Shown here piece by piece: positions 24,951 through 50,491 of a stretch of 64,000 bases of DNA. The position numbers and the translations under genes are program-made. The stretch lies in NCBI GenBank assembly GCA_021776095.1, contig JAJFGO010000088.1, positions 1-64,000 of the forward strand, in the 5' to 3' direction. Each line of letters begins with the position of its first letter. The stretch's first letter is position 1. The notes beneath the pieces were generated by a model that ran no database searches, was not told the origin of the DNA, and saw only the letters and a program-made list of their open reading frames with translations. Source of the stretch: Kiloniellaceae bacterium (GTDB lineage Bacteria > Pseudomonadota > Alphaproteobacteria > Kiloniellales > J153).

Positions 24951-25259
24951 ATGGCCGACGCTACCTTCACGCCGACGGCTTTCCTGAACGAGACGCTGGA
25001 ATCGGCGAGCTCCGGTTTGATTCCCGCCGTTATCGGGGCCACTGGGGCCGGACTCGGGATGTTCGCCCTGACCCCCTTTCTGGCGCCTGCCAGTGTTCCC
25101 ATAAGCCTGGCCGGCATGGTTTTAGCCATGCGCAGCCGCAACCCGGTGGCTCTGGTGCTGGGCGCTCTGGGGATCGTGTGGGCGCTAACCGCGCTGCTGC
25201 GATCGGATACCTTCTGGACTATCTTCGCGACCCTGGCCGCAAGCCTGCAACCAATCTAG
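24951..25259 (+). CDS. Small hydrophobic membrane protein, unknown function
   Basis: This 102-residue protein has a short soluble N-terminus (MADATFTPTAFLNETLES). Two to three hydrophobic segments follow at about 20-42 (PAVIGATGAGLGMFALTPFL), 47-60 and 66-82. No family is recognised. GAGGAG at 24937-24942 is a good ribosome-binding site before ATG 24951. The TAG stop lies within the left end of a large inverted repeat. The gene stands alone behind the AT-rich island. Confidence 0.7.
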   Translation: MADATFTPTAFLNETLESASSGLIPAVIGATGAGLGMFALTPFLAPASVPISLAGMVLAMRSRNPVALVLGALGIVWALTALLRSDTFWTIFATLAASLQPI

Positions 25260-25421
25260 AGCATATTCCGATCATATCGCGGCCATTGATGGCGCCATAT
25301 GATGGCTCTCGGCGAGGCACGGAACGGCGCGCGAGGTGGGGCAGCGGGCACGTTTCGTACCGACGCCTAGGGGCTGATTTGGCGCCATCAAATGGCGCGA
25401 TATGATCGGAATATGCTCTAG
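25256..25421. repeat. Large inverted repeat with CTAGAGCATATTCC ends
   Basis: The left arm 25256-25297 and right arm 25380-25421 (reverse complement) match over 42 positions. The outer 26 bases are identical and the inner part differs only by a small shift; an 82-base loop lies between. The terminal CTAG on each side supplies the TAG stop codons of both flanking convergent genes. It could form a long hairpin in either transcript and act as a bidirectional terminator. A 34-base stretch of its right arm recurs with 31 identities at 33812-33845. Confidence 0.9.
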
Positions 25422-25960
25422 CCGAGTGGCGCCAGCCCCATGCGCGCGCGCAGCAATTCGTTCAGGCAAGCGCGGGGCTCGATCCTTTGCGCCGCGTCGT
25501 CGCGCGCCTCGAGATAGCTGACTCGGGGGCCCCCGGGCTCCTCATAGAGAAACACATCGAACACGCAGGTCCGGCTGCGATACTGCCAGATCTGGGCCGG
25601 GGCCTCGTTGCGGATCAAGCTCGGCTGCCCGAGCAGAGCGTCGAGCGCCACAGGATCCACCCCATAGAGCTGCTGCGGATCGTCATCGACCACCGGCTCG
25701 GGCGGCGCCGGCGGTTCCGGTGGCAAATTGGCGATCGCGGGACCGGATGCACCGGCCTCGATGACCGAGCCCGCATCCGGAGCGGCGGGGCTAGCGCCGG
25801 AGTTCGAGACGACCGGGGAAGCCGGCGCTGATTTAACGCCGGACTCGGACGCGCCCTGACAGGCTGTGAGCAACCCGGCCAGCACTGCGGCGCAAATTAG
25901 GCCGCGCACAGGTCGCGCGAAGCGGCAAGTAGCCATGAGGTCCGGCACGGAGATTCGCAT
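25418..25960 (-). CDS. Outer-membrane-type lipoprotein, unknown function
   Basis: This 180-residue lipoprotein has an Arg-containing n-region, a hydrophobic h-region LICAAVLAGLL and a lipobox LTAC with C34. A Ser/Ala/Pro-rich tether follows to about residue 90. The C-terminal small domain (YGVDPVALDALLGQPSLI then IWQYRSRTCVFDVFLYEE) resembles compact SmpA/OmlA-like beta-hairpin domains, with two Cys that could pair. ATG 25960 directly abuts the bactofilin stop; an inner ATG at 25936 is also possible. The stop codon is inside the inverted repeat. Confidence 0.8.
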   Translation of the reverse strand: MRISVPDLMATCRFARPVRGLICAAVLAGLLTACQGASESGVKSAPASPVVSNSGASPAAPDAGSVIEAGASGPAIANLPPEPPAPPEPVVDDDPQQLYGVDPVALDALLGQPSLIRNEAPAQIWQYRSRTCVFDVFLYEEPGGPRVSYLEARDDAAQRIEPRACLNELLRARMGLAPLG

Positions 25961-33760: not shown

Positions 33761-33811
33761 GGTTAGACCGCAAGTGGGCCGCAACGACGTCCAGCGGGCG
33801 CGATAAACCGG

Positions 33812-33845
33812 TCAAATGGTGCAATATGGTCGGAATATGCTCTAG
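33812..33845. repeat. Solo half of the CTAGAGCATATTCC inverted repeat
   Basis: Thirty-one of 34 bases match the right arm of the 25.4 kb element (25388-25421). No matching left arm occurs within the 80-base gap. Its terminal CTAG provides the TAG stop codon of phoB. It lies between the convergent AEC transporter and phoB genes. Confidence 0.8.
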
Positions 33846-34537
33846 GCCGCGCTCGATTGGTCCAAGGCATAACCCGCGGCGCGTACGGTGCGGATCAGAT
33901 CGGCATCGCCATCACCGTTGAGCGCCTTGCGCAGGCGCCGGATGTGAACGTCGACGGTACGCGCCTCGACATAAACATCGTGGCCCCACACTGCGTCCAA
34001 GAGCTGTTCCCGGCTGAACACACGGCGGGGGTTGCGCAACAGGTAATGGAGGAGGCGGAATTCGGTCGGCCCCAAGTGGATCGCGCGGCCATCTCGGCGT
34101 ACCCGATGGGCGGTCAGGTCCATGGACAGGTCCGCGAAGATCAGGGTCTCCACCTGCCGGTCGGGCCGCGCCCGGCGCAAGAGCGCGCGTATGCGCGCGA
34201 TCAGTTCGACCGGCGAGAACGGCTTGGTAACATAGTCGTCGGCCCCGCCTTGCAGGCCGCGCACCTTGTCGGCCTCCTCGCCGCGCGCGGTCAGCATGAT
34301 GATCGGCACCGCGCGCGAATCCGGTTTGCGGCGCAGGCGCCGGCAAACCTCGATGCCCGACATGACCGGCAGCATCCAATCCAAGACAATAAGGTCGGGC
34401 TTGGTTTCCTCGGCCCGCAGCAAGGCTTCCTCGCCATCGCCCGCCTCGCTGACCTCAAAACCTTCGCGCTCCAGATTATAACGCAGAAGGGTGACTAAGG
34501 CCGCCTCGTCTTCGACAATCAGTATTTTCTCTGCCAT
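33842..34537 (-). CDS. phoB: Phosphate regulon response regulator PhoB
   Basis: This 231-residue OmpR-family regulator has a receiver domain with D10 in VEDEAAL, phospho-acceptor D53 in VLDWMLPVMSG and K105 in TKPFSPVEL. The winged-helix output domain has GPTEFRLLHYLLRNPRRVFSREQLLDAVWG and VDVHIRRLRKAL. It binds Pho boxes when phosphate is low. ATG 34537 (MAEKILIV) is preferred; an ATG at 34558 would add seven residues. It is the last gene of pstSCAB-phoU-phoB, and no PhoR kinase gene lies in the window. Confidence 0.96.
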   Translation of the reverse strand: MAEKILIVEDEAALVTLLRYNLEREGFEVSEAGDGEEALLRAEETKPDLIVLDWMLPVMSGIEVCRRLRRKPDSRAVPIIMLTARGEEADKVRGLQGGADDYVTKPFSPVELIARIRALLRRARPDRQVETLIFADLSMDLTAHRVRRDGRAIHLGPTEFRLLHYLLRNPRRVFSREQLLDAVWGHDVYVEARTVDVHIRRLRKALNGDGDADLIRTVRAAGYALDQSSAA

Positions 34538-50143: not shown

Positions 50144-50491
50144 ATGGGTGACGACGTCCGCTTCATTTCCATACAAGATTTAATTCCGCGCCTCGGCGTG
50201 CGGGATTGTCCGAGTCTAATCGACGTGCGCCGTGCCGAGGCCTTTGAATCCGCCGCCGACATGATCCCGGGGGCGGCGTGGCGCGACCCGGCCGAAGTCG
50301 AGGTCTGGGCCCACCAAATCCCGGCGGACGCCGACGTCGTCGTCTATTGCGTTCACGGTCACGAGGTAAGTCAGGGCGCTGCGGCGACTCTGCGCCGACT
50401 TGGTCGGAGCGCGGTTTATCTGGAGGGCGGCCTCGAAGGTTACCGCGTCGCGGGCGGCGATCTAATCGCTCGCCCGGACCGCGCGGAGTGA
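50144..50491 (+). CDS. Rhodanese-like sulfurtransferase, single domain
   Basis: This 115-residue rhodanese fold has SLIDVRRAEAFESAADMIPGAAW and the active-site loop YCVHGHEVSQ with C69, followed by YLEGGLEGYRVAGG. A loop of CVHGHEVS type fits a thiosulfate sulfurtransferase or arsenate-reductase-like member. Only 11 bases separate it from chrA; the pair sits between cobT and cobS. Confidence 0.9.
   Translation: MGDDVRFISIQDLIPRLGVRDCPSLIDVRRAEAFESAADMIPGAAWRDPAEVEVWAHQIPADADVVVYCVHGHEVSQGAAATLRRLGRSAVYLEGGLEGYRVAGGDLIARPDRAE

Follow-up and report, generated by a model that had tools for sequence, protein, structure and literature searches.

A putative stop-preserving miniature transposon at the ends of two convergent genes in a Kiloniellaceae genome, and the Y-shaped fold of its family

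Two convergent genes in the window, by which we mean the whole 64,000-nucleotide stretch of Kiloniellaceae bacterium DNA that was analysed (contig JAJFGO010000088.1, positions 1 to 64,000), finish at opposite tips of a single inverted repeat, and the question is how one repeat came to carry the stop codons of both. The preliminary description, made from the sequence of the window, reported arms that match over 42 bases (the outer 26 identical) around an 82-base loop, recognised the CTAG at each end as the stop of one gene (25257-25259 and 25418-25420), and offered two origins: the repeat inserted and became the 3' end of both genes, or it evolved as a shared terminator. Re-measurement returned the same 42-base arms, with 26 identical terminal bases and an 82-base loop, and extended the arms to 45 nt each with 91% complementarity and 76 nt between them; the double stop was confirmed from the sequence. 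Folded as a single strand, the repeat reaches -113.8 kcal/mol (z = -14.4), a value matched by 0 of 200 shuffles, and its terminal 20-mer has three matches in the window at up to 3 mismatches, compared to 0 in 100 shuffles. The features used in the argument are listed below.

24951..25259, + strand: membrane-protein gene (predicted, by eye), 102 aa
25256..25300, + strand: left inverted-repeat arm, outer 26 bases the same as in the right arm
25257..25258, no strand: left TA of the putative target duplication, inside CTAG 25256-25259
25257..25259, + strand: TAG stop of the small membrane-protein gene; the TA would be the target's and the G the element's
25259..25418, no strand: putative miniature transposon body, 160 bp, GAGC...GCTC, with the end stem and one hairpin arm
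25377..25421, - strand: right inverted-repeat arm, outer 26 bases the same as in the left arm
25418..25420, - strand: TAG stop (CTA on the + strand) of the lipoprotein-like gene; the TA would be the target's and the G the complement of the element's last base, C
25418..25960, - strand: lipoprotein-like gene (by eye), 180 aa
25419..25420, no strand: right TA of the putative target duplication, inside CTAG 25418-25421
33766..33845 (about), no strand: second, shortened copy, with part of arm 1 and the right terminal repeat
33842..34537, - strand: PhoB-like gene (by eye); its TAG stop coincides with the CTAG end of the second copy

The names membrane protein, lipoprotein, PhoB, nth, MFS, purH, and ABC-F were all given by eye, and neither the 102-aa nor the 180-aa flanking protein had a Pfam or NCBIfam match at E 0.01. 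On the evidence of its sequence, we take the inverted repeat at 25256-25421 to be a non-autonomous miniature transposon (MITE). The window copy is a shortened form without the other arm of the complete 266-268 bp copies.

The repeat is a member of a dispersed family, as had been supposed from the window, with approximately 16 copies in its own genome plus relatives elsewhere. All of the two-ended copies in the own genome are short (35, 48, 162-164, and 266-268 bp); of the others, one of ~247 bp extends across two contigs and two have lost one end. These copies with a lost end or a split over contigs (L038/L040, L041, and L046) are counted among the 16 and are left out of the set of 113 elements described below, and matches at C9:58935 and C14:39642 were excluded from the copy count. 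Compared with the rest of the genome, the window copy has a best full-length match of 84% and partial matches of up to 86% over ~130 bp and of 98% over 48-49 bp. The earlier statement that a 34-base part of the arm recurs at 33.8 kb was right about the presence of a copy at that position, but the match is inexact (91% identity over 34 nt) and represents one end of a truncated copy that extends further. The contigs of the draft assembly break in or beside several copies (L031, L038, L040, and L063, at the ends of C36, C60, C82, and C33). A 48-bp copy (L045 1594-1641) appears by eye to occupy the loop of a hairpin rich in GC, GGGGTCT...AGACCCC, which is possibly a host terminator.

An end-pairing script was applied to the own and related loci; with a spurious pair of 46 bp in L206 removed, it gave 113 elements with paired ends: 75 of type A, with ends TA/GAGC...GCTC/TA (the slash marks the element boundary), and 38 of type B, with ends TACC...GGTA. 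The own two-ended copies have TA on both sides in 13 of 13 cases and CTAG directly at both ends in 12 of 13, the thirteenth having CTAA on one side. Across type A, TA was present on both sides of 67 of the 75 elements and was inside CTAG on the left for 59 and on the right for 57, counts that are biased because TA formed part of the type-A search pattern (the type-B pattern included a single flanking A/T). A recount used anchors free of the tested bases on 82 cores, of which 8 had short flanks, 6 had no paired anchor, 46 were type A, and 22 were type B. With GAGC as the sole anchor, TA was found on both sides of 35 of the 46 type-A cores and CTA at 26 of 46, the next base being mixed. For type B, 30 pairs had TNA on both sides and were identical in 20 (shuffled mean 10.8, p 0.0002), and the flanking triples in the recount were identical in 11 of 22. 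The proposal that the repeat inserted is supported by this apparent target-site duplication of TA. With G as its first base and C as its last, the element body inserted at TA would yield TAG on the left and CTA on the right, and a TAG or TAA stop at the target would stay a TAG stop. Insertion into a stop codon need not harm the gene if it proceeds in this manner.

The positions of the copies relative to genes were then compared with those of CTAG sites. Among the 16 own copies, 10 have an end that is the TAG of a called gene, versus 45 of 162 non-genic CTAG sites of the DNA sampled (p = 0.006); 10 are located between convergent genes, versus 34 of 162 background CTAG sites (p = 0.0009); and 12 are within 40 bp of a gene 3' end, versus 70 of 162 (p = 0.014). 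The suggestion that other copies might exist and concentrate between convergent genes accordingly stands for the own genome but is weak in the wider set, where convergent genes flank 15 of the 51 other type-A copies for which a neighbour was called on each side, and 23 of all 62 other type-A copies coincide with a stop (p = 0.12, not significant, with the own-genome CTAG background reused for the comparison). Taken over all genomes, 30 of 75 type-A and 10 of 38 type-B elements are on stops, and 3 of the 75 have stops at both ends. Two type-A elements besides the window copy have both ends as stops (L090 1343-1610 and L138 3834-4103). CTAG is scarce in the own genome (436 occurrences versus 1562 expected in 464 kb), and 52 of the 433 element-free CTAG sites are stops; part of the stop pattern accordingly reflects where CTAG occurs and is tolerated. 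Genes were called with a simple codon-usage caller, and a few copies were treated individually. L031/L063, which lies one codon before a TGA, was excluded as a stop but scored as convergent on the basis of the contig end of C33; for L038, no right neighbour was called. The contexts of both were entered by hand in the enrichment test. The left end of L034 looks like a real stop, matching the gene end in G001 and G002, and was missed by the caller and not counted, and the right open frame of L037 overlaps a better gene on the opposite strand and was left out of the stop count.

For the mobility of the family, an IS630-type transposase acting on TA/GAGC ends may have moved the copies or may still do so. 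RUP and Correia elements are familiar MITEs with TA targets. IS630 elements insert at TA according to PMC2170065, which also cites the 1991 paper of Tenzen and Ohtsubo, whose title states a CTAG preference. The repeat is like the IS630/Tc1-mariner elements and the TA-target MITEs in having TA on both sides, CTAG as the preferred site, and inverted ends, and like the MITEs it has no transposase; judged in this way, it belongs to a familiar general class of miniature transposons and is IS630-like in its target. An element with the same kind of ends is found in a genome of the same order (G047), where L371 1305-2397 is an IS630-family insertion sequence of ~1.09 kb with TA/GAGC...GCTC/TA ends in CTAG, its left end being the TAG stop of an ABC-F-like gene. 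The transposase matches NCBIfam IS630 (E 2.3e-32, 112.6 bits, cut-off 100) and Pfam DDE_3 (7.2e-29), is split over two frames, and is probably inactive. This element and the repeat have in common only about the outer dozen bases, and the inner end sequence differs; by analogy of the ends, it is a candidate partner rather than a proven one. No full-length transposon with the same inner ends was present beside end matches in 20 stretches of five relatives, and DDE_3 matches occurred in three of eight genomes, with none in G001-G003, which carry copies. IS5-type insertion sequences have TNA-like targets, resembling the TNA flanks of the type-B relatives that are identical in 20 of 30 pairs. Their transposases (DUF4096) are present in 12 of 14 genomes, and some of the elements, such as L390, start with GAGC, so that IS630 is not the sole candidate; none of the inspected IS5-type loci, however, had ends matching the repeat or TACCAA ends.

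The complete copies differ from TA-target MITEs, as far as the available descriptions of the latter go, in having a conserved Y-shaped core. The large form folds into an end stem bearing two hairpin arms (z -11.6), and the core consists of this end stem, two arms that are inverted relatives of each other, and the junction motifs CATTTSACCG / CGGCCTNCGGTGG / CATSAAATG. A consensus fold derived from 42 diverse cores contains 69 pairs, 51 of them with changes on both sides. Pairing was observed in 94.5% of the cells of the 42 cores, compared to 76.1% when shuffled and at most 41.4% when slid, and 505 cells were changed on both sides, compared to 133.9 when shuffled and at most 124 when slid. The 42 cores were picked as diverse from the 82, with 9 coming from BLAST-found loci and 33 from a pattern scan that demanded the first two junction motifs, and no motif in any of them deviates by more than one mismatch. 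This selection accounts in part for how constant the junction letters are; the arms were not subject to it. Arm 1 resembles the reverse complement of arm 2 (z of 2 or more) in 39 of the 42 cores, as opposed to 8 of 42 for the same-sense control. Pairs of the G-U and A-C kinds were counted at 97 to 46 overall, 82 to 18 in arm 1, and 15 to 27 in arm 2; the sign differs between the arms, so neither strand is clearly favoured. The inverted repeats of mobile elements can be homogenised, yet the many compensatory states found between genomes argue for selection on the fold, and the complete element seems to be selected for its folded shape. The likeliest reason is that the DNA or RNA, in its folded state, is important to the propagation of the element itself.

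The distribution of the family is patchy. In a DNA comparison, 15 of 37 relatives besides the own genome gave matches, and the exact core pattern occurred, besides the own genome, in 2 of 189 further genomes of the class, with 0 in the control. A pattern scan of contigs yielded at least 116 stretches; the 80 that were listed are labelled as Alphaproteobacteria of several orders or as unresolved Proteobacteria, apart from one labelled Phycisphaerales. This last stretch (L182, JAJDDH010000211.1) carries the repeat core and possibly represents contamination of that genome bin. At the gathering threshold, Rfam (release 15) gave no match to the repeat in the window or in eight loci with cores. The same search identified a chrB-b RNA elsewhere in the window (RF03086, 50058-50112 on the + strand, 42.6 bits against a gathering threshold of 36.5), just upstream of a called gene at 50144. 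We suggest, as a tentative reading that we hold with slightly more doubt than belief, that the Y core is a selected functional module in Alphaproteobacteria that has been passed between the TA/GAGC (CTAG) and TACC (TNA) transposition systems, with the stop-containing targets allowing spread on gene ends. Both types of target contain stops (TAG/TAA for the one and TAA/TGA for the other), so if this reading is true, the module would spread on gene ends without breaking genes.

The ends of the orthologous genes in related genomes bear on whether the stops are older than the element. In G003, the two flanking genes end at the same residues as in the window, the lipoprotein gene with GGC-TAG and the membrane-protein gene with ATC-TAG, each within a CTAG without the element; in G001 and G002, the stop of the membrane-protein gene is TAA. 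Comparable gene ends were seen for other copies: in G002 the stop of the L044 gene is part of a CTAG, in G001 that of the L036 gene is TAG, and no element could be recognised in the 60 bases displayed. The L038 gene keeps the same final codon position in G001, G002, and G003, but with TGA. The ortholog of the L044 gene in G003 has a stop followed by letters resembling a decayed end. In G001, the stop codon of the ortholog (L343) instead carries a palindrome of its own, 26 bp long and with CTAG ends. Among 14 joined sites in six genomes, none was both contiguous on its two flanks and empty. We conclude that both flanking stops are probably older than the repeat, and by parsimony the element-free state of G003 would be ancestral. 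The suggestion that the repeat became the 3' end of both genes is not supported by these relatives, in which both genes end at the same residues without it, whereas the idea of an insertion gains from the TA on both sides within CTAG together with the orthologous gene ends that lack the element.

Gene order in the relatives indicates that the window repeat likely sits at a rearrangement junction. In G001, G002, G004, G006, and G007, an MFS-like gene comes after the membrane-protein gene; in G003, this place is taken by a purH-like gene. The gene facing the lipoprotein gene is nth, immediately so in G001, G005, and G008 and across a single small intervening gene in G002 and G003. In the own genome, the order is membrane-protein gene, element, lipoprotein gene, while nth and the MFS-like gene are adjacent elsewhere; the four genes have swapped partners reciprocally, for which an inversion would suffice. 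That nth lies next to the MFS-like gene speaks against a misassembly of the window, where the repeat has a best full-length match of 84% to the rest of the genome. At this reciprocal junction (L385, G000:C94), the C-terminus of nth is altered and rich in lysine, and the gene borders directly on the start of the MFS-like gene. Neither an element nor the small gene of G002 and G003 was found at the nth-MFS-like junction of the own genome. The flanks of another own copy, C61:77448, lie in G001 at 14 kb from the lipoprotein gene (left flank) and 22 kb from the membrane-protein gene (right flank), and in G003 the left flank is on the contig of the membrane-protein gene, which makes the history more complex than one inversion. 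Synteny was kept at 0 of 4 element sites that could be mapped on both sides (3 by DNA and the window site by protein, in draft genomes), and of 4 control sites 2 were kept, 1 had ~1.9 kb in between, and 1 was kept only in G008, the numbers being small.

The exchange could have taken place through this family by either of two routes. One is recombination between a copy at the first stop and a copy at the second; the other is an aberrant one-ended transposition, by which a copy would have entered the second CTAG stop. Either would leave one element bearing both stops. The missing element at the nth-MFS-like junction fits one-ended transposition better, or else a later loss. A simpler history would be a single insertion into a pre-existing four-base overlap in which the convergent genes shared one CTAG as both of their stops. 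Element-free CTAG sites that are double stops do exist (3 in 464 kb), the TA on both sides fits such an insertion directly, and L090 and L138 provide two other double-stop copies. The flanking genes are, however, not neighbours in G001, G002, or G003, so that a single insertion would need an earlier rearrangement exact at both stops, and we consider this history unlikely. An exchange with this element at its junction is a likelier source of the double stop than a single insertion. The explanation that we prefer, and regard as probable, is that of a MITE targeting the TA of CTAG, with stop-preserving insertion, exchange of partners through the element, and mobilisation of the IS630 type.

Two readings that do not start from a transposon relate to the transcripts and to the fold. 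A shared bidirectional terminator, in which the hairpin arose by selection, or was recruited, to stop transcription of the two convergent genes, would draw on the very stable hairpin and on the enrichment of the own copies between convergent genes, but tracts of at least 5 T in the 8 bases outside occur at only 2 of 222 element ends, no terminator was called at the repeat by a scan that covers loops of 3-8 only, copies are also present between tandem and divergent genes, and the convergent enrichment is weak outside the own genome. We reject a canonical intrinsic terminator because T-tracts are nearly absent outside the ends and none was called at the repeat, leaving that part of the preliminary description unsupported, and we judge a shared terminator in the broader sense to be quite improbable. 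Still more improbable, in our view, is a structured RNA element (an mRNA 3'-end stabiliser or a small RNA) spread by selection and not a transposon relic. The strong covariation of the 69-pair consensus fold is what such an RNA would display, and yet there are flanking duplications, two types of ends that are each tied to their own target, a patchy distribution, several size variants, and an excess of G-U pairs in arm 1 only with no strand clearly favoured.

Membership in a known group of bacterial repeats was considered in the same manner. The REP/BIME repeats, which are moved by RAYT proteins, are palindromic, extragenic, and modular like the repeat studied here, which differs from them, by description, in its flanking TA/TNA duplication and its 26-bp perfect terminal repeat. 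The Caulobacter CcrM-associated intergenic repeats (CIR) were reportedly studied by Chen and Shapiro in 2003. The family resembles CIR in several respects, including the alphaproteobacterial hosts, the intergenic location, and the two long arms joined by a linker. These traits of CIR, as well as their conservation between alphaproteobacteria, are given in section 7 of PMC2229807 and in PMC10969869. Against this likeness, the GANTC sequence that defines CIR, where it lies in an exposed loop, is present in 7 of the 82 cores versus 39.2 expected from base composition, the core is ~212 bp and not ~110, about twice the size, flanking duplications are present, and so is an end-to-end stem, which the same section of PMC2229807 gives to other repeats and not to CIR. 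Comparing with CIR by their description, we reject membership on the basis of the depletion of GANTC and regard it as extremely improbable. QMITE2 of Coxiella is also a MITE found mostly at gene 3' ends, being located mainly in 3' untranslated regions (PMC10969869), and the description given there mentions no stop-codon rule.

A search of titles and abstract openings of open-licence papers returned no account of stop-preserving insertion or of such a fold, an absence of weak weight given that scope. The results nevertheless provide a simple rule for harmless transposon insertion on stop codons, in that the first base of the element would complete the TAG, and they would account for the striking coincidence of two gene ends at one repeat as the likely scar of a rearrangement. 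The repeat family is absent from Rfam, and its fold, unlike its sequence, is kept between distant genomes. Because of this fold, it can be tested whether a folded single strand is required for the movement of small bacterial transposons.
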